Shown: piece by piece, positions 20,118 through 33,167 of the stretch
How the letters are laid out: each line of letters starts with the position of its first letter
Position numbering within the stretch: position 1 is the first letter of the stretch
Source of the DNA: Cognatundibacterium rivi
GTDB lineage: Bacteria; Pseudomonadota; Gammaproteobacteria; Burkholderiales; Burkholderiaceae_D
Assembly: GCF_018139565.1 (NCBI RefSeq)
Contig: NZ_JAGSPK010000002.1
Location: forward strand, 558,001 to 622,000
Length of the DNA: 64,000 nt
Direction of reading: 5' to 3'
The notes under the pieces: generated by a model
The model's database searches: none
The model's input: only the letters and a program-made list of their open reading frames with translations
What the model was told of the DNA's origin: nothing
Translations under genes and position numbers: made by a program

Positions 20118-20426
20118 CTAGTGCATTAGTACACCTTCTTGACATCTTGTAACAATAACATGCTTCACCAATGGCCGATTAGAAGCATTGATATTAACCA
20201 GCTTAATTCTTTGCTTAAACTGCTCAAATCCAATCACAGCAGCAAGCCGTCCAATACATTCATCAGCGAAAGATGGCGTCAGGCTATGGTGTTCGAAGTC
20301 AACCTCAATAACCGAGTAATCATTCAGCAGTTGCACTAACCTATCACGCGCCATCGCCCCAACTGGACGAGTGCTCAAATTAGGAGCCAAATCTACTACC
20401 TGCACCTTAAAAGTCGAAATCGTCAT
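20118..20426 (-). CDS. STAS-like (DUF4325-type) protein
   Basis: A 102-residue protein with the DUF4325 pattern: an N-terminal VVDLAPNLSTRPVGAMARDRL, then 'VIEVDFEHHSLTPSFADECIGRLAAVIG', where a strand is followed by Ser-x-x-Phe-Ala-Asp-Glu. The motif resembles the phosphorylatable loop of STAS anti-sigma antagonists. It overlaps the GHKL ATPase gene by 20 bp and is surely co-translated. Such pairs recur in genomes with little experimental work behind them. The STAS-like partner may respond to phosphorylation or binding by the ATPase. Confidence 0.7.
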   Translation of the reverse strand: MTISTFKVQVVDLAPNLSTRPVGAMARDRLVQLLNDYSVIEVDFEHHSLTPSFADECIGRLAAVIGFEQFKQRIKLVNINASNRPLVKHVIVTRCQEGVLMH

Positions 20427-21270
20427 CTGAATACCCCTTTATTTGTGGAAATCCCCTATAAACCTCTGCAATATCCATTGGAACATCAATATTCCACTCA
20501 ATGATTAACATCGTCCCATTCCATGGAATCTGATTTTTAAGTGATGTTGCATTACGACCACTTAAAATGAACGTTTCATCCCCAGACCGGACATATAACA
20601 CACCGTTATTCTGCTCCAATAGTTTTCTAGCGATGGCCAGCCCATAACCTGAATGGCCTTTCCCAGGCTTACTTGTTACACCATATTGCGTTGCTAACTC
20701 GCAAGCATTTGATTTAATGAGTGTATCAAACAATTCCTCGTTCTGCCGAAGAGATCCTCTAATTCCAATGCCGGAATCAACTAACGCTATCTGAGCCTTC
20801 TTACCAGAAGCCCACACTTGCCCACAAATCAATCCATACAACCCGTCCTCGGATGCTGCATGCGCAAAACAATTTCCAATCAATTCCCTCAACATCGTAT
20901 CCACTGCGTTGAGCGTAACATCATCGGAACAAACTGGGCGAAACATTTCAACAACGCTACTCGAAACCGTATCAACTGAATTCTCATCCTCCAATAGAAA
21001 CAATGGAATATATCTTCCAGCAGGAGCCCTATGGATTGGACCATGCGGAGACTCCAATCCAATAGCCCCCCACAGATTCATTGTATTTGCATACGATGCA
21101 ATTTTTTCAGCAACATTAACTTCAGCAGCCTTATTCTTCCTTAGGATATGCGCGACTGTAGCAAAATGAAACGGCTTTATAAATTTAGGAGAGCTACACG
21201 CCCGATTTTTCTCCAAACAATCCAACTCCTCTAACCACGAACTAACGTCCTCATGCTCTGTATACCTCAT
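20407..21270 (-). CDS. GHKL-fold ATPase (histidine-kinase-like), partner of the STAS-like protein
   Basis: A 287-residue soluble protein. The Bergerat ATP site is in the C-terminal half: N-box MLRELIGNCFAHA, G1 box VDSGIGI and G2 box GHSGYGLAIARKLLEQ. There is no DHp dimerisation domain, no phospho-accepting His box and no membrane segment, so it is not an ordinary sensor kinase. It resembles anti-sigma (SpoIIAB-like) or effector ATPases. Residues 1-120 are an N-terminal domain I do not recognise (WLEELDCLEKNRACSSPKFI). It overlaps the STAS-like gene. Location in the cargo block suggests a lysogen-expressed module, perhaps defensive; that is inference. Confidence 0.75.
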   Translation of the reverse strand: MRYTEHEDVSSWLEELDCLEKNRACSSPKFIKPFHFATVAHILRKNKAAEVNVAEKIASYANTMNLWGAIGLESPHGPIHRAPAGRYIPLFLLEDENSVDTVSSSVVEMFRPVCSDDVTLNAVDTMLRELIGNCFAHAASEDGLYGLICGQVWASGKKAQIALVDSGIGIRGSLRQNEELFDTLIKSNACELATQYGVTSKPGKGHSGYGLAIARKLLEQNNGVLYVRSGDETFILSGRNATSLKNQIPWNGTMLIIEWNIDVPMDIAEVYRGFPQIKGYSDDDFDF

Positions 21271-23515: not shown

Positions 23516-23622
23516 AACCTCTCCAGAAGTTGATCTGTTTTTTCAATTTAAAAAGTTGTAACAAAACTTTTCAGATCTCTAGTTTATCGATTGTATTTTA
23601 ATAAACAAATAAATCACATTTA

Positions 23623-23666
23623 TTATTCATTCGCGTATTGACGTTATTTATTCATTCGCGTATATT
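23623..23666 (+). promoter_or_regulatory. Right-arm early promoter with two repressor operators (PL-like)
   Basis: TTGACG (23638-23643) and TATATT (23661-23666) have a 17-bp spacer, close to ideal sigma70. Operator copies TTATTCATTCGCGTATT (23623-23639) and TTATTCATTCGCGTATATT (23648-23666) overlap the -35 region and cover the -10. The second differs by one base from the copy over the repressor promoter at 17962-17980. The start point is expected near 23673, upstream of the 23698 gene. It would be silent in the lysogen and drive the operon that includes the DGR. Confidence 0.8.
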
Positions 23667-24322: not shown

Positions 24323-24793
24323 ATGACGATAGCACAAATGACAGCAACACCAGCAGCAACGGCAGCATCGGCAATCTCAACACTGCTTACAACGATAGCC
24401 ATTCCACGCATCGACACATTCTTGGCAGAGCACGGCGGTATTTTTGCTGGCATCGTTGCCGGTGAAAACGACGCACCAGATTATTTTCTGATCCACGCCA
24501 CATCTGACCATGAACTTTTCGATATTGACTGGCATAACTCAGTTGAAGCAGCACAAGCGCCAATCAACGGCCTGACAGACTGGTCACTACCCACCCGCCG
24601 CGAAGCCCGTTTGCTGGCAATTAATTGCCGCGACAGCTTTGATCTGGATAGTTTGTATTGGACATCTGAGCAGAACGCCCTCATCGTCGGCTACGCCTGG
24701 ATGCAGAGCTTCCTCTACGGCGGCCAGGGCTACAACCACAAGTCGTTCAAGTATCGCGCTCGCGCCGTCCGCAGAGTATTCATCATTCAGTAA
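24323..24793 (+). CDS. DGR target protein 1 (C-type-lectin-like, DUF1566-type)
   Basis: A 156-residue protein; AAGGAATCATC precedes the ATG. Its first 40 residues are Ala/Thr-rich and may be a linker. Residues about 40-156 have the DUF1566/Lcl-type fold: WSLPTRREARLLAINC, SLYWTSEQNAL, then the variable segment and the fixed KYRARAVRR end. The variable repeat encodes the last 40 or so residues, where the lectin fold presents a surface. No signal peptide, membrane helix or tail-fibre module is visible. It is followed by the VR-specific hairpin. It is the most N-terminally diverged of the four targets. Confidence 0.85.
   Translation: MTIAQMTATPAATAASAISTLLTTIAIPRIDTFLAEHGGIFAGIVAGENDAPDYFLIHATSDHELFDIDWHNSVEAAQAPINGLTDWSLPTRREARLLAINCRDSFDLDSLYWTSEQNALIVGYAWMQSFLYGGQGYNHKSFKYRARAVRRVFIIQ
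24670..24775 (+). repeat. DGR variable repeat 1 (VR1)
   Basis: 106 nt aligned without gaps to the template repeat at 28447-28552. I count 14 differences, all at positions where the template has A, replaced by T, G or C. The last 26 nt, including the GC-rich end, are identical to the template. Confidence 0.96.
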
Positions 24794-24812
24794 TTCAGTC
24801 ATTCGATTAACC

Positions 24813-24827
24813 ACGGGCGCAGCCCGT
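24813..24827 (+). promoter_or_regulatory. Post-VR1 hairpin
   Basis: Stem ACGGGC/GCCCGT with a GCA loop, 37 nt after VR1. The flanking string ATTCAGTCATTCGATTAACC before it is shared by all four targets. DNA hairpins beyond the VR are needed for retrohoming in the Bordetella phage DGR; a T-tract follows here, so terminator activity is also possible. Confidence 0.75.
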
Positions 24828-24843
24828 TCGCGAGATTTTTACA

Positions 24844-25035
24844 ATGAAAACACACCACCGCATAGGCCAGCCCGTGACGTTTCACTGCCATATTTTAGGA
24901 AAAGTGCGCGGCAAAATCCTGCGCTTCGTACCCGACGTGAGCAATGGGCAACTGCATGCAGAGCTTGAATTACTACCCCCGCATGCCGCCACACCCATCG
25001 TGACAGAGCCGGTGGTGAATCTGGAGGCAGCATGA
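24844..25035 (+). CDS. Small phage protein, 63 aa
   Basis: A 63-residue beta-rich protein (RIGQPVTFHCHILGKVRGKILRFVPD ... HAELELLPP) whose end (EAA) overlaps the start of the HD-domain gene in the conserved GGCAGCATGA junction. The strand pattern looks like a small SH3- or OB-type barrel. No named family. Confidence 0.6.
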   Translation: MKTHHRIGQPVTFHCHILGKVRGKILRFVPDVSNGQLHAELELLPPHAATPIVTEPVVNLEAA

Positions 25036-25580
25036 AACCTATCATCCTGACGGCAAACGGCTCTTATTTCGATTTACTGGCGCCATCACTTAGCCATATC
25101 GACATTGAAACCATCGCCCATGCGTTATCACATATTTGCCGGTTCACTGGACACACCCGCGAGTTCTATTCTGTCGCACAGCACTGCTACCACGCATCAT
25201 TCATCGTGCCAGAAGAATACGCGCTTGAAGCCTTGCTGCATGATGCAGCTGAGGCGTACATCGGTGACGTAGCAACGCCGCTCAAACGCCAATTGTTTGA
25301 CTACGCCGAAATTGAGCGAAAAGTGGAGCGCGCCATCGCCGAGCGATTTAACTTAACGCTGCCGATGTCCACACACGTGCACCGGGCAGACCAAATCATG
25401 CTGGCAACAGAAAAGCGCGACCTGATGCCAGACAGCGATAACTGGTTCGCTGGCACCGATATTCTGCCGCTGACTGCCAAGCTTGAACCGGTAACACCAA
25501 CGATGGCAAAGCGCATGTTCTTAGATCGCTACCACCATCTGATCGTGTTGAATGAAATTGCTGCGGGAGAAGCAGCATGA
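25032..25580 (+). CDS. HD-domain phosphohydrolase (YfbR-like)
   Basis: A 182-residue HD hydrolase. Metal-binding residues are visible in order: FTGHTREFYSVAQHC(Y)H, EALLHDAAEAYIGDVATPLK with the HD pair, and HRADQIMLATEKRDLMP. Phage and bacterial proteins of this type (YfbR family) dephosphorylate deoxynucleoside monophosphates, so a role in nucleotide pool control during replication is likely. It is part of the right early operon, coupled by overlaps on both sides. Confidence 0.82.
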   Translation: MKPIILTANGSYFDLLAPSLSHIDIETIAHALSHICRFTGHTREFYSVAQHCYHASFIVPEEYALEALLHDAAEAYIGDVATPLKRQLFDYAEIERKVERAIAERFNLTLPMSTHVHRADQIMLATEKRDLMPDSDNWFAGTDILPLTAKLEPVTPTMAKRMFLDRYHHLIVLNEIAAGEAA

Positions 25581-26107
25581 GCAAAAACTCCCAAGCCAAA
25601 CGCATCGCCCGTCAACACAAACGCGGTGGCTTTGACAGAAAAATCAACCCGTTCGGCGGCCTTGGCGTGCTGCAAAAAAACTACTTCGACAACACCATCG
25701 CGCCGCGCAAGCTCGATAGCGATCAGCGTTTCGACATTTCAAAATCAGGCTGGGCGTCGATGCTCGTTATTTTGAAAGACCCCGCTGCAAACGCCGACCA
25801 CTGGGCCGATCTGGTGACCGCTGCCAACCTCGCATTAATGCTGGCAGAGCAAGGTTACGGGCAAGAGCATGAGCCCGTCATCATCCGCGCCCAAGAAGCC
25901 CTCACTCGCATGTACATCCGCGGCATAGAGAAAAACATCTGGCGCCTGGACGGGCAAGGCATTCAAGATATTAAAGACATGCTGCATCTGCATGACCTGC
26001 AATGCGAACACGCCACCAACGGCGACATTCAACAAGCCCTGCGCACGATCACTGACCGCGTGATTAGCGGGAATGTGTTTGAAATAGCGCACCCGGAGGC
26101 AGCATGA
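25577..26107 (+). CDS. Phage early protein, unknown function
   Basis: A 176-residue mainly helical protein. It opens with a basic segment (SQAKRIARQHKRGGFDRKINPFGG) and continues with helices such as HWADLVTAANLALMLAEQGYG and IIRAQEALTRMYIRGIEKNIWRLDG. It overlaps both neighbours by 4 nt in the ATGA style of this operon. Similar proteins occur in beta-proteobacterial prophages but I know no assigned function. Confidence 0.6.
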   Translation: MSKNSQAKRIARQHKRGGFDRKINPFGGLGVLQKNYFDNTIAPRKLDSDQRFDISKSGWASMLVILKDPAANADHWADLVTAANLALMLAEQGYGQEHEPVIIRAQEALTRMYIRGIEKNIWRLDGQGIQDIKDMLHLHDLQCEHATNGDIQQALRTITDRVISGNVFEIAHPEAA

Positions 26108-26397
26108 ACCACTACATGCGCCTACGTACAACAACACGTGAACTGATAGAAATCGGAACGCGTATACAGCAGTCTGGGACACCTGATTTTGGCAATCCAA
26201 TGAAACCTATCATCGGCGCTATCACCAAAATGCAGGAATGTGATAGCGGCATTTTTCTTTTCGTCAAAACAGATGATGGAAATATCGAAAAAGCCCATGT
26301 CAGATTTGATGTTACCTACGGCATACGAATGAATGAATGCGGAATCGTAACGACTATTTTGCAACCTGCACCACGACAACTTGAAATCAATGCATAA
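26104..26397 (+). CDS. Small phage protein, 97 aa
   Basis: A 97-residue protein that starts in the GGCAGCATGA junction. It is beta-rich (IIGAITKMQECDSGIFLFVKTDDGNIEKAHVRFDV) and acidic in the centre. It is 9 bp upstream of the second target gene. I do not recognise it. Confidence 0.55.
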   Translation: MNHYMRLRTTTRELIEIGTRIQQSGTPDFGNPMKPIIGAITKMQECDSGIFLFVKTDDGNIEKAHVRFDVTYGIRMNECGIVTTILQPAPRQLEINA

Positions 26398-26406
26398 GGA
26401 ATAACC

Positions 26407-26781
26407 ATGAGCAAAGCACAATTTCTCGCAGAAAGACAACGCCCCGGCGAAATTTATGCCGGACTGATTCTGGGTAAAAACGGCCAGCCGGATTACCACC
26501 TCTTCTTATTGGAAGCAAAACCAAAAGCATTGCTGGACTGGGCAGATTCCAAAAAGTGGGCAGCAAGTGTTGGCGGCGAATTACCCAACCGCTGCGAGCA
26601 ATCGCTGCTGTTCGCCAACCGCCAAGAACATTTTGAGAAAGACTGGTACTGGTCCAGCGAGCAGAACGCCCGCAACGACGACTACGCCTGGGTGCAGAGC
26701 TTCGGCAGCGGCCTCCAGAGCAGCGGCCGCAAGTCGGGCAAGTATCGCGCTCGCGCCGTCCGCAGAGAATTAATTATTTAA
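26407..26781 (+). CDS. DGR target protein 2 (C-type-lectin-like)
   Basis: A 124-residue protein, the shortest of the four. Residues 15-60 contain GEIYAGLILGKNGQPDYHLFLLEA, a beta-hairpin shared in outline with targets 3 and 4 (EQYVGSIISADG). Then WADSKKWAASVGGELPNRCEQSLLFA, WYWSSEQNAR and the variable segment follow, ending KYRARAVRRELII. AAGGAATAACC precedes the ATG. It has no secretion signal. The variable region is rich in Gly and Ser at the diversified codons (GSGLQSSGRKSG). Confidence 0.87.
   Translation: MSKAQFLAERQRPGEIYAGLILGKNGQPDYHLFLLEAKPKALLDWADSKKWAASVGGELPNRCEQSLLFANRQEHFEKDWYWSSEQNARNDDYAWVQSFGSGLQSSGRKSGKYRARAVRRELII
26661..26766 (+). repeat. DGR variable repeat 2 (VR2)
   Basis: 106 nt without gaps to the template, with 14 differences, all at template adenines (mostly to G). 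One change alters the otherwise fixed Met codon ATG to GTG, as expected of A-specific change rather than selection at designed codons only. Confidence 0.96.
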
Positions 26782-26803
26782 TCATTCAGTCATTCGATTA
26801 ACC

Positions 26804-26818
26804 ACGGGCGCAGCCCGT
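26804..26818 (+). promoter_or_regulatory. Post-VR2 hairpin
   Basis: Identical stem and GCA loop to the hairpin after VR1, also 37 nt beyond the VR end, followed by a T-rich stretch. Confidence 0.75.
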
Positions 26819-26853
26819 TCACGATTTTTTAATTTTATCTACTGGAGCAGACT

Positions 26854-27315
26854 ATGAATATCACGATAGAAGCGATCAAAGAGCAGCATAACAAAGTGGC
26901 AGAAATGATCGCAGCATTCGAAGCGAATGCAAAATTATCCGCCGCATTCCCGATCACAGTCAATTTCCCACGACCGAACGCTGGCGAACAATACGTCGGC
27001 AGCATCATCAGCGCTGACGGAAAAAAACGCGAACACATTATTTTACTTCCAGGCGAACTCACTGGCGACAACTGGGACGATTCCATGACGTGGGCAGCAT
27101 CGATTGGCGGCGAACTGCCTGATCGCGTTGAATCCGCCCTGCTTTTTGCAACATTGAAAGACCAGTTCCACGCAGAAGGGTATTGGACACGTGAGCAGGA
27201 CGCCCACGACGACGGCTACGCCTGGATGCAGAGCTTCATCAGCGGCAACCAGAACGACATCCGCAAGTCGGTCAAGTATCGCGCTCGCGCCGTCCGCAGA
27301 GAATTCATTATTTAG
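26854..27315 (+). CDS. DGR target protein 3 (C-type-lectin-like)
   Basis: A 153-residue protein with GGAG 8 nt before the ATG. Residues 1-45 form an N-terminal helix (ITIEAIKEQHNKVAEMIAAFEANAKLS) that could oligomerise. Residues 45-153 are the lectin-like domain: EQYVGSIISADGKKREHIILLPGE, MTWAASIGGELPDRVESALLFA, YWTREQ and the variable end. Outside the VR it is nearly identical to target 4, a recent tandem duplicate. The tail ends in VRREFII. No signal peptide or membrane segment. Confidence 0.88.
   Translation: MNITIEAIKEQHNKVAEMIAAFEANAKLSAAFPITVNFPRPNAGEQYVGSIISADGKKREHIILLPGELTGDNWDDSMTWAASIGGELPDRVESALLFATLKDQFHAEGYWTREQDAHDDGYAWMQSFISGNQNDIRKSVKYRARAVRREFII
27195..27300 (+). repeat. 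DGR variable repeat 3 (VR3)
   Basis: 106 nt without gaps to the template, with 10 differences, all at template adenines. This is the least diverged of the four, so possibly the most recently rewritten or the least active. Confidence 0.96.
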
Positions 27316-27337
27316 TCATTCAGTCATTCGATTAACC

Positions 27338-27353
27338 ACGGGCGTCAGCCCGT
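27338..27353 (+). promoter_or_regulatory. Post-VR3 hairpin
   Basis: Stem ACGGGC/GCCCGT with a four-base loop (GTCA), 37 nt after the VR. The loop is one base longer than after VR1 and VR2. Confidence 0.75.
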
Positions 27354-27389
27354 TCACGATTTTTTAATTTTTACCTACCGGAGCAGACC

Positions 27390-27851
27390 ATGAATATCAC
27401 GATGGAAGCGATCAAAGAGCAGCACAACAAAGTGGCTGAAATGATCGCAGCATTCGAAGCGAATGCAAAATTATCCGCCGCATTCCCGATCACAGTCAAT
27501 TTCCCACGACCGAACGCTGGCGAACAATACGTCGGCAGCATCATCAGCGCTGACGGAAAAAAACGCGAACACATTATTTTACTGCCAGGCGAACTAACTG
27601 GCGACAACTGGGACGATTCCATGACGTGGGCAGCATCGATTGGCGGCGAACTGCCTGATCGCGTTGAATCTGCCCTACTTTTCGCAACATTGAAAGACCA
27701 GTTCCACGCAGGATGGTATTGGACACGTGAGCAGTACGCCCACTACGACGACTACGCCTGGATGCAGAGCTTCGGCCTCGGCAGCCAGAACTACGGCCTC
27801 AAGTCGGGCAAGTGTCGCGCTCGCGCCGTCCGCAGAGAATTCATTATTTAG
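27390..27851 (+). CDS. DGR target protein 4 (C-type-lectin-like)
   Basis: A 153-residue duplicate of target 3, offset by 536 bp. The first 110 residues differ at one position that I can see (ITIEAIK versus ITMEAIK), while the variable segment differs at most diversified codons. Same domain order: N-terminal helix, beta-hairpin, GGELPDR motif, YWTREQ and variable end. VR4 changes a fixed Tyr codon to Cys near the end (KCRARAV). It is followed by a hairpin and then the Avd gene. Confidence 0.88.
   Translation: MNITMEAIKEQHNKVAEMIAAFEANAKLSAAFPITVNFPRPNAGEQYVGSIISADGKKREHIILLPGELTGDNWDDSMTWAASIGGELPDRVESALLFATLKDQFHAGWYWTREQYAHYDDYAWMQSFGLGSQNYGLKSGKCRARAVRREFII
27731..27836 (+). repeat. DGR variable repeat 4 (VR4)
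   Basis: 106 nt without gaps to the template, with 14 differences, all at template adenines, including one in the TAT codon close to the fixed GC-rich end. Confidence 0.96.
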
Positions 27852-27873
27852 TCATTCAGTCATTCGATTAACC

Positions 27874-27889
27874 ACGGGCGTCAGCCCGT
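27874..27889 (+). promoter_or_regulatory. Post-VR4 hairpin
   Basis: Same stem and GTCA loop as after VR3, 37 nt past the VR, followed by CACGATTTTTTTT, so it may also end transcription before the Avd gene in part. Confidence 0.75.
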
Positions 27890-27907
27890 TCACGATTTTT
27901 TTTCATC

Positions 27908-28303
27908 ATGGCTATTCATACCGCTCTGCCGATCTACAAAGAAGCTTACGAGCTTCTGAAGCTGGCGACGACGATCACCAAAAACATGCCGAAAGATTTT
28001 AAGGCCTCTGTTGGTGGTGAAATTCGTGCACTGTGTGTGCAAAGCGTGCTGCTGATCGCACGCGCCAATGCCGCACAGGACAAGGCACCGCATCTGGCGA
28101 CATTGCTTGAGCAAATTCACGCCGTTGAGATTTTATTTCGCTTGGCAAAAGACATGCGATTTATCTCCACCGGTCAATATGCCAACGCAATTCAAACGAC
28201 AGATGCGATCGGAAAACAGGCTAATGGATGGCGAAAGTCCGCTGTAGCTTCAGCGCCCGTTACATCGATGCCACGGCAGCCTTGTCAGCGCGCTTTAATT
28301 TAA
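27908..28303 (+). CDS. avd: DGR accessory variability determinant (Avd-like four-helix protein)
   Basis: A 131-residue helical protein between the last target gene and the template repeat. Features of Avd proteins are present: an amphipathic N-terminal helix (LPIYKEAYELLKLATTITKNMPKD), a middle rich in small residues (SVGGEIRALCVQSVLLIARANAA) and a third helix (HLATLLEQIHAVEILFRLAKDMRFIS). The C-terminal 25 residues are basic or irregular. Avd forms a barrel-like pentamer that binds the DGR reverse transcriptase and template RNA; its role here is by family. The start codon follows a T-run with no clear ribosome site. Confidence 0.82.
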   Translation: MAIHTALPIYKEAYELLKLATTITKNMPKDFKASVGGEIRALCVQSVLLIARANAAQDKAPHLATLLEQIHAVEILFRLAKDMRFISTGQYANAIQTTDAIGKQANGWRKSAVASAPVTSMPRQPCQRALI

Positions 28304-28446
28304 TCTGGTCATGCCGCTGGGGCAGCAAACCGCCCCACCGCCACGCGCACCACAGATACTGCCGGCACATGCCCGCAAGTCTGGCGCAGTTATTTTATTG
28401 ATCGGCAACCACCTTCGACGAAACGACATAGATAGCATGAATAATC

Positions 28447-28552
28447 GCAGAACGCCCACAACGACGACTACGCCTGGATGCAGAGCTTCAACAACGGCAA
28501 CCAGAACAACAACCACAAGTCGAACAAGTATCGCGCTCGCGCCGTCCGCAGA
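28447..28552 (+). repeat. DGR template repeat (TR)
   Basis: 106 nt with many AAC codons in the phase used by the targets: the reading phase would give Asn at most diversified positions, so A-changes cannot create stop codons at those codons. It ends in a GC-rich, invariant tail. It lies in the Avd-RT gap (28304-28556), as in other DGRs, and ends 4 nt before the RT start codon. There is no hairpin after it, unlike after every VR. The rest of the gap shows no other gene. Confidence 0.95.
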
Positions 28553-28556
28553 TCAA

Positions 28557-29669
28557 ATGGAGCCAGCGAGCCATGATGGGCCTTTGTTTTCAGAACTCGC
28601 GCAAGCCTACTTCGATTGCCGCAAAAACAAGCGCAACTCGCCCAGCGCGTTGGCATTTGAAAGCAATCTTGAGCGTAATTTGATTGCGCTCTATGAAGAA
28701 TTGATCGACGGCAGCTACACACCGGGAAAATCGATTTGCTTCGTCGTGACGCGCCCGAAAGCACGTGAAGTGTGGGCGGCAGATTTTCGTGATCGCATTG
28801 TGCACCACTTGCTTTACAACAAAGTGTCGCCGCGCTTTTACGCCAGCTTTATTGCCGATAGCTGCGCATGCATCCCCGGGCGCGGCACGTTGTATGCCGC
28901 AAACCGGCTGGCCGCAAAAATACGCAGCGCATCGCAGAACTGGTCTAAGCCCACGCTTTATTTGAAATGCGATCTGGCTAATTTTTTCGTCAGCATCGAT
29001 AAACGCATATTGCAAAAACAGCTTGACCAACGCATTACCGAGCCATTTTGGCAGCAACTGACGCACACGATACTCTGGCACGACCCACGCCAGAACGTAG
29101 AGATTCGCGGTGAAAAAGAACTGCTGGCAAAGGTGCCGCAACACAAGCGACTGACCGAGCAACCAGCACACCTTGGTCTGCCGATTGGCAATTTATCCAG
29201 CCAGTTCTTTGCGAACGTGTATTTGAATGCGCTTGACCAGCATATCAAACACCAGATCCGCGCGCGGCATTACATTCGTTATGTTGACGACATCGTGCTG
29301 CTGCATGACTCAGTAGATTGGCTCAACTCGGCGCTGACGGACATTACCCACTGGCTGCCAGCAACGCTGGGCGCGAGACTCAACCCACGCAAAACTATCC
29401 TGCAACCCGTCGCCCGGGGAGTGGATTTTGTTGGCCACGTCATCAGGCCGTGGCACACCACCACACGCAAACGCACTGTCAACGAAGCAACCCACCGCAT
29501 CTCTACCGCGAAACAAAGCGATGTGTTTGCCATGACAAACAGTTACCTAGGGCTGATACGCCAGACAACCGCCAACCATCATCACCAGGCACAAATCGCC
29601 AATGCCGCAAGACGCCGAGGATTTGCGGTGAAGAGTGATTTAACGAAGATTTACGAGAGCCGCGAATGA
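28557..29669 (+). CDS. DGR reverse transcriptase
   Basis: With the ATG at 28557 the protein has 370 residues. RT motifs in order: REVWAADFRDRIVHHLL (residues 70-86), KCDLANFFVSID (137-148, catalytic Asp), LPIGNLSSQFFANVYLN (208-224, the DGR-type motif 4), IRYVDDIVLLH (240-250, catalytic YVDD) and NPRKT...VDFVGHVIRP. The LPIGN(L)SSQ and YVDD signatures separate DGR RTs from retron and group II intron RTs. No endonuclease or maturase domain is present. The frame is open upstream through the template repeat, so a longer N-terminus (for example from 28437) cannot be excluded, but it would be a Thr-rich repeat product. Confidence 0.92.
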   Translation: MEPASHDGPLFSELAQAYFDCRKNKRNSPSALAFESNLERNLIALYEELIDGSYTPGKSICFVVTRPKAREVWAADFRDRIVHHLLYNKVSPRFYASFIADSCACIPGRGTLYAANRLAAKIRSASQNWSKPTLYLKCDLANFFVSIDKRILQKQLDQRITEPFWQQLTHTILWHDPRQNVEIRGEKELLAKVPQHKRLTEQPAHLGLPIGNLSSQFFANVYLNALDQHIKHQIRARHYIRYVDDIVLLHDSVDWLNSALTDITHWLPATLGARLNPRKTILQPVARGVDFVGHVIRPWHTTTRKRTVNEATHRISTAKQSDVFAMTNSYLGLIRQTTANHHHQAQIANAARRRGFAVKSDLTKIYESRE

Positions 29670-30252: not shown

Positions 30253-30578
30253 GTAACTTTCAATACGTGCGTAATCAATATAGTGTCCCAGCAGTGCTTG
30301 GACGCCGTGTGACTGTATCAGGCAAACCCGGCATTATCGCTGCCGATCGCGGCCACTATATCGGTGTTAATTTTGACTCAGACAAGCCGGGAGTAATTCA
30401 CAACTGCCATCCGACAAGTGAAGTGAAATATGGTGATATGGGCGTGGTGCGCAAACCTAGCCGCTATGCAGCTCGATATGACCGCTTCTTAGAATACGGC
30501 GATGGTTTTGACTCGTTTATTGATTTTTGTCGATGGGATGCGATGCCGGAGCGTAGCTGGAATGGCGGTGCAGCATGA
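30249..30578 (+). CDS. Phage early protein, 109 aa
   Basis: A 109-residue protein containing VLGRRVTVSGKPGIIAADRGHYIGVNFDSDKPG, a small beta-barrel-like pattern (possibly KOW/SH3-like), followed by a Tyr/Phe/Asp-rich C-terminal part. It starts and ends in the conserved gene junction. Function unknown. Confidence 0.55.
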   Translation: MSNFQYVRNQYSVPAVLGRRVTVSGKPGIIAADRGHYIGVNFDSDKPGVIHNCHPTSEVKYGDMGVVRKPSRYAARYDRFLEYGDGFDSFIDFCRWDAMPERSWNGGAA

Positions 30579-30979
30579 GCAAGTACACATTGGATCCATG
30601 CCCATTCTGTGGCGAACAACCCGAGATTAATCATATAGAAGCCCATAGTCATTCTTTCCAGATTGATGGCTTCAAAATGCCAGACCATCCGGGGTCATGT
30701 GTCATCGAATGCGCCTGCGGCGCTGGATTAATTGATTCAGACTTTAATACGGTCGCGACGCGCTGGAATACTCGCGCTATGCCACTACCGGAAGTGACAA
30801 TAATAGAAATCAACACCGAGGTACTACGCAAAGAGAATGATCGGTTGCGTGATGCACTAGAGAAATGTAGTCACCTTGCTGTCGGTGGACTATGTCAAAT
30901 GACACACGGCGGAACGCGAGCATTCTGCGAAGACATCAAGCTACATGTGGCAGATGTATTGAAAGGCGGTGCAGCATGA
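30575..30979 (+). CDS. Lar-type restriction alleviation / zinc-finger protein
   Basis: A 134-residue protein. Its N-terminus has the Lar pattern: LDPCPFCGEQPEI, then CVIECACGAG, and the closing ATRWNTR. Lar proteins of the Rac prophage modulate host type I restriction. A Leu/Glu/Lys-rich helix (TEVLRKENDRLRDALEKCS) follows. It ends KGGAA with the conserved junction. The family call is good; the effect on a host restriction system is unproven. Confidence 0.75.
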   Translation: MSKYTLDPCPFCGEQPEINHIEAHSHSFQIDGFKMPDHPGSCVIECACGAGLIDSDFNTVATRWNTRAMPLPEVTIIEINTEVLRKENDRLRDALEKCSHLAVGGLCQMTHGGTRAFCEDIKLHVADVLKGGAA

Positions 30980-31634: not shown

Positions 31635-31807
31635 ATAAACTACTCACACAGAAAGACGTGATCGACTATCTGCAAGTCACACGCCAGACGATTTACCTAT
31701 GGCGGCGGCAAGGTGTATTTCCTAAACCATTCCAGGTCGGGCGGTTTCTGCGCTGGAAGCGTGAAGATGTTGAGTCATTCGCCAGCCAGCACACGGCTCA
31801 TATCTGA
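31631..31807 (+). CDS. AlpA/MerR-like excisionase
   Basis: A 58-residue winged-helix protein starting in the GGTGCAGCATGA junction: LLTQKDVIDYLQVTRQTIYLWRRQGVFPKPFQVGRFLRW is the AlpA/excisionase-type helix-turn-helix with an aromatic wing. It is the last gene of the right operon and faces the integrase, whose end it overlaps by 10 bp. Its expression from the same repressor-controlled promoter fits a prophage excision role. AlpA proteins also activate int in some elements. Confidence 0.75.
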   Translation: MNKLLTQKDVIDYLQVTRQTIYLWRRQGVFPKPFQVGRFLRWKREDVESFASQHTAHI

Positions 31808-32919
31808 GCATCGATCCAATTGCTATACCACCGCATCATGACAACCCGCTGATCGTAATAATCAGCGCGGTTGTAAGCCAGCCGCACATCATCCGTCTCT
31901 TTATGCGCGAGCTGCCGCTCTATCCAGTCTCGATTAAACTGTGTTTGTTGATTCAATACGGTACTCGCCAGCGCGCGGAAACCGTGGCCGGTCATTTTTC
32001 CCCGATACCCTAAGCGATACAGCGCAAACAGCATTGAGTTGTCAGTAATCGGCTGGCCGCGCCGAACGGGTGATTCCAGCAAATATTCAGAACACGTCAT
32101 ATCAGCCAGATCGGTGATGATGCTCATTGACTGCGGCGTCAGCGGCACAACATGTGGCTTTCGCAGCTTCATCCGCTCTGCAGGAATCACCCACACTTTA
32201 TTTTCAAAATCGAATTCATCCAGCTTTGCTTTAATCAACTCATTCGTCCGGACAAACGTGTATGCCAGCAGCAGCAATGCTTGCTTAGATACGCCCTGCT
32301 CCATAGAACGGATATCATTAAACAACTTGGGGGCATCACTGATATCAATACATGCCATGTGACGGCGCTCGCGAACAGATGGCAACACCCGCGTAAGATT
32401 GCTTGCCGAATGCTGCTCTAAATAGCCCAGATCCATTGCGTAATCCATGACCATAGTCACGCGGCCCGCCAATCGACGGGCACTTTCCGGCGTATCCGCA
32501 AATTCCTGAATCGCCTTCACCAGGGTAGTACGCGGCATTTTATCGATCGCCAGATCACCCACTTTAGAAATAAATTGCTCTAGCGATGTGATGGTCTGAT
32601 GCTGATGTTTTGAATTGGAGAGCGAAGGAACTTTCTTTTCAAGCCACTCCCGCGCAACATCTCGAAATGTGGGCGCTGTCTTTACGCGCTCAACCGGGGC
32701 TTTTTTACGCTCAAGATTTTTCAGGCGGGCGTCAGCAAGAGAAAGATCGGGATACTTCCCATACGTGATCGTCGTGCGCCGGCCATCAACATCACAATCG
32801 CACTTCCATGATTTTGATCCGGCGGCAGAGATATAGAGATATAGCCCCTCGATGTCGCGAATTTTATAGGGCTTATCCTTGGGTTTTGCAGCGTCAATCT
32901 GCTTTGCAGTCAGTGCCAT
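31798..32919 (-). CDS. int: Tyrosine recombinase integrase (P4-type, DUF4102 N-terminus)
   Basis: A 373-residue integrase. Residues 1-80 form the DUF4102-like arm-binding domain (LTAKQIDAAKPKDKPYKIRDIEGLYLYI). The core-binding domain covers about 85-190. Catalytic signatures are box I Arg (TFVRTNEL), HGFRAL (His-x-x-Arg) and the nucleophile Tyr in LAYNRADYYDQR. Such enzymes integrate at tRNA 3' ends; a tRNA-Ser gene lies 160 bp upstream. It is read toward the excisionase gene, so the two converge. Its promoter lies between 32920 and 33030. Confidence 0.93.
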   Translation of the reverse strand: MALTAKQIDAAKPKDKPYKIRDIEGLYLYISAAGSKSWKCDCDVDGRRTTITYGKYPDLSLADARLKNLERKKAPVERVKTAPTFRDVAREWLEKKVPSLSNSKHQHQTITSLEQFISKVGDLAIDKMPRTTLVKAIQEFADTPESARRLAGRVTMVMDYAMDLGYLEQHSASNLTRVLPSVRERRHMACIDISDAPKLFNDIRSMEQGVSKQALLLLAYTFVRTNELIKAKLDEFDFENKVWVIPAERMKLRKPHVVPLTPQSMSIITDLADMTCSEYLLESPVRRGQPITDNSMLFALYRLGYRGKMTGHGFRALASTVLNQQTQFNRDWIERQLAHKETDDVRLAYNRADYYDQRVVMMRWYSNWIDAQI

Positions 32920-33068: not shown

Positions 33069-33077
33069 ACATGTTCT

Positions 33078-33167
33078 TGGCGGAAGCTGTGAGATTCGAA
33101 CTCACGAAGGCTTTAACACCTCGCCAGTTTTCAAGACTGGTGCATTCAACCGCTCTGCCAAGCTTCC
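33078..33167 (-). tRNA. tRNA-Ser (UGA)
   Basis: A 90-nt cloverleaf on the minus strand. The acceptor stem is GGAAGCT with AGCTTCC, discriminator G and encoded CCA. The anticodon stem CCAGT/ACTGG encloses a CTTGAAA loop with anticodon TGA (UCA codon). The T-arm GTTCGAATC is present, and a long extra arm, as in serine tRNAs, lies between anticodon and T stems. Its 3' end faces the integrase, so this is the likely attachment gene and the prophage right end. The left attachment copy must lie beyond the window start. Confidence 0.95.

Follow-up and report, generated by a model that had tools for sequence, protein, structure and literature searches.

Known systems and the locus under study

Most of what is known about priming in diversity-generating retroelements (DGRs) was learned from a single model phage, BPP-1. 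Its cassette reads mtd-avd-TR-Sp-brt and serves one tail-protein target. Its template repeat (TR) comes directly after avd, and the 144 nt that lead from the TR to the reverse transcriptase (RT) gene hold a structured RNA, Phage_DGR (RF03022), located 3' of the TR. Here we describe a DGR of Cognatundibacterium rivi, found in a stretch of 64,000 nt (contig NZ_JAGSPK010000002.1, positions 558,001 to 622,000), which we name the window and whose own numbering we use below. In common with BPP-1 it has one TR, an avd gene, an RT with GxLxSQ and YxDD motifs (about 31% identical to that of BPP-1), adenine-specific changes in variable repeats (VRs) at the 3' end of a C-type-lectin target, and a GC-rich 3' end identical in VR and TR. 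By contrast, its conserved RNA, of the RT-15 family (RF03018), lies 5' of the TR, the TR abuts the RT gene at a distance of 4 nt, and four small stand-alone targets are located away from the tail genes. We hold it to be highly probable that this is a complete prophage DGR, where a template RNA made of the RT-15 leader and the TR is copied by RT and Avd with errors at adenines, the complementary DNA (cDNA) then replacing the VRs of four targets with lectin domains.

Isolated phages on record belong to the same lineage: Pseudomonas phages Haboob, Cruim01, LPPA56 and phPA-G, Burkholderia phage Magia and Shewanella phage vB_Sb_QDWS. Their RTs are 58-66% identical to that of the window, they possess a conserved leader before the TR (RT-15 according to Rfam in those scanned), and their small lectin targets stand upstream of avd in a cassette placed near the integrase. 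They differ in having two or three VRs, against four in the window. Undibacterium macrobrachii is also among the relatives that carry this DGR.

A complete element with adenine-only variation

An earlier note, made from the sequence, had placed four target genes, an Avd-like gene, a TR and a DGR-type RT within 24323-29669. Coordinates and parts were recomputed, and all of them are present:

24323-29669: whole DGR cassette, comprising four targets, avd, RT-15 RNA, TR and RT
24323-24793, + strand: target gene 1, 156 residues, Lcl_C/C-type lectin domain (Pfam Lcl_C, 1.4e-8), recovered by the target profile
24670-24775, + strand: VR1, 14 differences from the TR, all at TR adenines
26407-26781, + strand: target gene 2, 124 residues (Pfam Lcl_C 5e-7, below the curated cut-off; target-profile E 6.8e-51)
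26661-26766, + strand: VR2, 14 differences, all at TR adenines
26854-27315, + strand: target gene 3, 153 residues (target-profile E 2.7e-60), recent duplicate of target 4
27195-27300, + strand: VR3, 10 differences, all at TR adenines
27390-27851, + strand: target gene 4, 153 residues, N-terminal helix (5-30) followed by a C-type lectin fold (AlphaFold2)
27731-27836, + strand: VR4, 14 differences, all at TR adenines, one being A84G in the 3' end
27908-28303, + strand: avd, 131 residues (Pfam bAvd 2.6e-13; PHROG 'Avd protein of DGR' 1.4e-35; NCBIfam DivGenRetAVD, below cut-off)
28251-28447, + strand: RT-15 RNA (RF03018), structured 5' leader of the template RNA (Rfam 145 bits; covariation)
28447-28552, + strand: TR, 106 nt, of which 35 are adenines
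28557-29669, + strand: DGR reverse transcriptase (PHROG 1423, 4e-113; GLPIGNLSSQ and YVDD; RT tree), start uncertain

Ungapped realignment of each 106-nt VR with the TR agrees with the earlier count: there are 52 mismatches, and a TR adenine lies under 52 of the 52. With 33% adenine in the TR, a naive estimate of the probability of this outcome by chance is about 1e-25; all changes are accounted for by 23 of the 35 adenines, and for these 23 distinct positions the figure is 7e-15. Every one of the changes falls on the first or second position of a codon in the target frames. Compared with one another, the VRs differ at 13-19 positions per pair, and no pair among the four shows a difference at a TR position other than adenine. 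The terminal 26 nt, described as constant in VR1-VR3 and altered once in VR4, are indeed identical to the TR in the former and carry a single A>G, at TR position 84, in the latter. Searching the whole 3.9-Mb genome with the TR returned five places, the TR itself and VR1-VR4, and no further VR; the four targets are therefore the full set in this genome. No plasmid copies of leader and TR were found.

The accessory protein Avd was recovered in three libraries, the NCBIfam match being below its curated cut-off. As for the RT, its GNLSSQ motif stands against the QGGxxSP of group II RTs, and its best match among solved structures is 8ub7 (5e-38; labelled 'Reverse transcriptase'), which we take to be the BPP-1 DGR RT complex, the runner-up being a maturase RT at 2e-7. 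Phylogeny had been proposed as a check of the DGR-type assignment: a tree whose only members besides the RTs of DGRs are five of group II sets these five apart with support 98/95 and groups the window RT with those of prophages of its own genus (row F_L164 of this tree is a misframed sequence and its branch an artefact). An RT of some other kind, related to those of retrons or group II introns and lying beside chance repeats, might be invoked on account of weak matches to general RT profiles. This is scarcely credible: the group II model scores 84 bits against a cut-off of 300, the DGR motif, the 8ub7 match, Avd and the TR/VR statistics all oppose it, and it is contradicted by the adenine-only pattern together with the RT tree. 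The identity of the element as a DGR is very secure, and in this respect it plainly belongs to an established type.

A structured RNA precedes the template

Between avd and the TR lies a gap of 143 nt. The RT-15 match, 197 nt long, begins inside avd, spans this gap and extends as far as the first base of the TR; it covers the full model (1-192 of 192) with 145 bits, for a gathering threshold of 82, and the assignment is a strong one. The Rfam entry, with which it shares the same structure over the full length, only names an RNA family, and the window ties that family to a DGR template repeat. The leader region is conserved among relatives. Across 30 diverse relatives the 49 pairs of the structure are 94% paired, as against 81% in column shuffles, and 32 of the 49 show two-sided changes, as against 19 in the shuffles, while sliding the structure along the alignment gave at most 41% pairing. 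The RT-n RNA motifs reportedly come from work by Weinberg in 2017.

The association was also approached from the RNA side. The RT-15 core pattern was used to retrieve viral contigs without any selection based on the RT, which yielded 89 loci with at least 2 kb upstream. An A-biased TR/VR repeat follows the core in 88 of them, the TR beginning 127-147 nt (5th-95th percentile) downstream of the core start. In essentially all cases open to testing, then, what lies next to RT-15 on its 3' side is a DGR template. Rfam scans of the class and of the family, a coarse first pass that may have missed matches, found RT-15 in the own genome only (1 of 369) for the class and above cut-off in 8 of 245 genomes for the family.

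One could propose that the DGR works exactly as that of BPP-1, with the essential RNA and the priming site 3' of the TR in the early part of the RT gene, RT-15 being the leader of a messenger RNA (mRNA) or a regulator of RT translation. The location of the Rfam DGR RNA of BPP-1 invites this reading, the RT gene too has RT-15 as a neighbour on its 5' side, and in some relatives the RT seems to begin in or upstream of the TR. Against it, across 125 relatives the RT gene has no third-position constraint beyond the TR, its third positions being constrained only in the first block, which covers the TR end. Folding of an alignment of leader, TR and 60 following nt shows structure in the leader only, none being conserved in the TR or in the next 60 nt, and the 4 nt that separate TR and RT leave no structured spacer RNA of the BPP-1 type. 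Added to the near-fixed junction of RT-15 and TR, this makes the BPP-1-like explanation improbable, though not negligible. In the same fold no pairing of the leader with the TR or with the RT start exceeded a probability of 0.15. We infer that RT-15 may be the part of the template RNA that binds RT and Avd and supports priming, replacing the 3' spacer RNA of BPP-1.

Two other DGRs are relevant here. In BalMu-1 (locus L199) another RNA of the series, RT-14 (RF02921), is found at 2295-2438, 3' of the TR in the TR-RT spacer, so that RT-14, too, appears to be a template RNA of DGRs. The nearest outgroup of the RT, a DGR from a fecal phage (locus L201, 1201-2993), has an 18-nt TR-RT spacer and a 68-nt leader that has no Rfam match. 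It also lacks a long 3' spacer, and the shift to the 5' side may therefore predate RT-15; L201 would be a possible intermediate outside the lineage.

The RT-15 leader, which is not among the parts named in the earlier note, is more distinctive than the number of targets, and the 5' placement of its conserved RNA makes the lineage a variant of known DGRs. In the limited literature within our reach we found no paper that gives RT-15 by name, so that an earlier assignment to DGRs is possible, nor any description of a DGR lineage with a conserved RNA 5' of the TR, for which priority may lie elsewhere.

Four lectin targets on one template

The C-terminal part of all four targets is an Lcl_C-like domain, with the VR at the 3' end of the gene. 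The AlphaFold2 model of target 4, built with 55 homologues, has a mean predicted local distance difference test (pLDDT) score of 94.1 and displays a C-type-lectin fold; its closest folds are the C-terminal domains of Bdellovibrio Bd2740 and Legionella Lcl (8oks, Z 13.7; 8q4e, Z 13.6). The variable residues of each target would form a lectin ligand surface, and this surface may be what selection acts upon. A simple hydropathy test found no signal peptide or membrane segment above threshold in the four targets. The target profile, run against the own genome, matched the four targets and the TR itself and picked up no other protein, a tail fibre for instance. In most phage DGRs the targets are involved in receptor binding (PMC8144416). 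Small lectins encoded apart from the tail genes could likewise be parts of the virion, or else serve the lysogen.

The four targets do not form an unbroken row. Between the first and the second come three genes unrelated to them and a possible small open reading frame:

25032-26397, + strand: block of three genes that separates target 1 from target 2, not part of the DGR
25032-25580, + strand: gene resembling a deoxynucleoside monophosphate (dNMP) 5'-phosphatase, YfbR-like (phrog_318, 6.6e-72)
25577-26107 and 26104-26397, + strand: two genes without assigned function, between targets 1 and 2

The first of the three would act on nucleotide pools in the vicinity of an error-prone RT, although its position there could be chance.

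The earlier note had called four targets on one template unusual. To place this number, related RT loci from viral collections, genome collections and phage records were each searched for A-biased repeats. A TR/VR pair could be detected in 164 loci, the window among them. The number of VRs is one in 16 of these loci, two in 97, three in 46, four in 4 and five in 1; these are rough lower bounds, some contigs being cut short and some prophages being present in two collections. Two or three is the rule, and at least four VRs occur in 5 of the 164. A 9.8-kb viral contig (L094, 1-3712) has at least five on one TR and ends at the contig edge. Four is thus high for the lineage but not new, and the claim is right only in part; published DGRs have three, four, six or more VRs. 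In DiGReF, 19 DGRs had two VRs, 2 had three and 3 had four (PMC3521204), and a later survey counted 271 multi-VR DGRs and 948 non-redundant DGRs (PMC6642488). As in the window, one DGR serves several paralogous targets in Treponema denticola, in Stenotrophomonas sp. SKA14 and in table 2 of DiGReF (PMC4891356, PMC6642488, PMC3521204). The T. denticola element, with up to seven or eight targets, differs in that these lie dispersed over the chromosome and that lipoproteins are predicted for many of them (PMC4891356), and that of Stenotrophomonas, with six VRs, in that it has two TRs (PMC6642488).

Candidate marks that follow the variable repeats

For some 50 nt past each VR the sequences are nearly identical, with an AT-rich stretch of 8-nt period (ATTCAGTC-type) and a GC hairpin located 37 nt past the VR:

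24813-24827, + strand: 6-bp GC hairpin ACGGGC-GCA-GCCCGT after VR1
26804-26818, + strand: the same 6-bp GC hairpin after VR2
27338-27353, + strand: 6-bp GC hairpin with loop GTCA after VR3
27874-27889, + strand: 6-bp GC hairpin with loop GTCA after VR4

In relatives, the AT-rich repeat in its strict forms comes after 43-58% of VRs, as against 0-1% in shuffled sequences and 0% for the TRs. By their position, repeat and hairpin may be marks that designate the VR as recipient and the TR as donor. A hairpin after the VR, as in BPP-1, was considered as a signal common to the whole lineage and rejected, since it was found after 27% of VRs; the AT-rich repeat is commoner. After each hairpin of the window comes a stretch of T residues (24813-24845, 26804-26836, 27338-27371, 27874-27907), and the hairpins may therefore, in addition, end transcription between the targets.

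Activity and proposed mechanism

Adenine specificity had been put forward as something to be tested in related isolates. Near-identical relative prophages now provide the test: they differ mainly in their VRs, and the VR differences lie at TR adenines. Loci L106 and L107 show 15 differences in the first ~2.6 kb that they share; 14 of these fall in a single VR, each at a TR adenine. The TRs of phages Haboob and phPA-G are identical, and one of their VRs has 12 changes, all at TR A, the preceding flank being unchanged (0/150). Between L049 and L127 there are 16, 15 and 13 VR changes, all at TR A, for flank differences of 4-9/150. These comparisons indicate natural DGR activity in close relatives within the lineage.

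Within the window, targets 3 and 4 differ at 10 of 341 nt before the VR and at 14 of 106 within it, all at TR A. They are nearly alike outside the VR, and we therefore consider it most likely, on this comparison, that the DGR diversified VR3 and VR4 after the recent duplication. A decayed or silent element, with VRs that are fossils of past diversification, would fit with the fact that the evidence for activity comes from relatives in the lineage; RT, avd, TR and the four target frames are intact, however, YVDD is kept, targets 3 and 4 diversified after they were duplicated, and the VRs hold no change other than at A. Such silence appears quite remote, and this copy may be active at present.

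The mechanism that we favour, that of a complete DGR with an upstream leader, would proceed as follows. RT and Avd would bind the RT-15 leader of a template RNA in which RT-15 comes before the TR. The RT would copy the TR into cDNA with errors at adenines, and this cDNA would replace any VR with a matching 3' end and flank, in four target genes. One TR may serve four VRs because all keep its GC-rich 3' end and share a 3' flank that is absent from the TR itself.

Several features weigh against this account. The priming role of RT-15 and the present activity of this copy are both deduced, the latter from relatives. The RT frame is open from 28311 through the TR, homology to relatives begins right after the TR, and the first ATG after it (28557) has no obvious Shine-Dalgarno sequence before it. 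Several relatives have no usual start codon between the TR and the RT body, so that the RT may start in or before the TR, in which case the RNA may double as mRNA; DiGReF noted overlap of TR and RT frame as a class (PMC3521204). As to the hairpin, it follows only 27% of relatives' VRs. The mark of BPP-1 type is a GC hairpin of 7-10 bp with a GRNA loop, 4-34 nt after the VR (PMC3240598), and that of the window departs from it in its shorter stem (6 bp), its loops (GCA or GTCA) and its distance (37 nt).

Prophage context

The DGR had been said to reside in a prophage, and phage genes, an integrase and a tRNA-Ser repeat are all in place. From 14 kb leftward, past the left edge of the window, come terminase, portal, head protein, tape measure and other tail genes; replication and CII/repressor-like genes are found at 15-18 kb. 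The right end comprises:

31798-32919, - strand: prophage tyrosine integrase, beside tRNA-Ser
33078-33167, - strand: tRNA-Ser, the probable prophage integration site
33077-33091: probable attachment-site core TTGGCGGAAGCTGTG, 15 bp, at the 3' end of tRNA-Ser, with a second copy ~5.3 kb left of the window (552690)

The two copies of the 15-bp repeat delimit a probable element of ~38.4 kb, a prophage that is probably integrated at the tRNA-Ser gene. The DGR extends in the interval from repressor to integrase, away from the tail genes. In annotated phages of the lineage it is also near the integrase, in a stretch that in Magia and Haboob has recombination genes as well.

Other features of the region may be of interest. 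At 23616-23663, right ahead of the rightward gene series that runs up to target 1, two near-identical direct repeats of 23 nt, which contain TTATTCATTCGCGTAT-like sequence, make a possible operator. On the - strand, 20118-21270 encodes a HATPase-type protein, then a STAS-like DUF4325 protein in an overlapping frame, with partial PADLOC similarity to DrmA; the pair resembles a two-gene anti-sigma-like or defence-related module. A Lar-like restriction alleviation protein is encoded at 30575-30979 (+ strand).

What the lineage may tell about retroelements

We would propose, tentatively and as a rather unlikely extension, that DGRs with RT-15 make a separate mechanistic class, with a folded core and then the TR, where priming or positioning would be the task of the upstream core in a way more retron-like than BPP-1-like, and that their targets are lectin-like proteins foreign to the virion, expressed from the early or lysogenic region and possibly acting in or on the lysogen. 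A large lineage of Proteobacteria with a conserved RNA 5' of the TR implies that the BPP-1 layout is not universal. Represented by isolated phages on record, this lineage suggests what an orphan Rfam RNA probably does, and it offers a natural contrast for testing what controls priming and adenine errors. Finally, several small lectin targets on one template constitute a natural multi-target test of the way DGRs find their sites.

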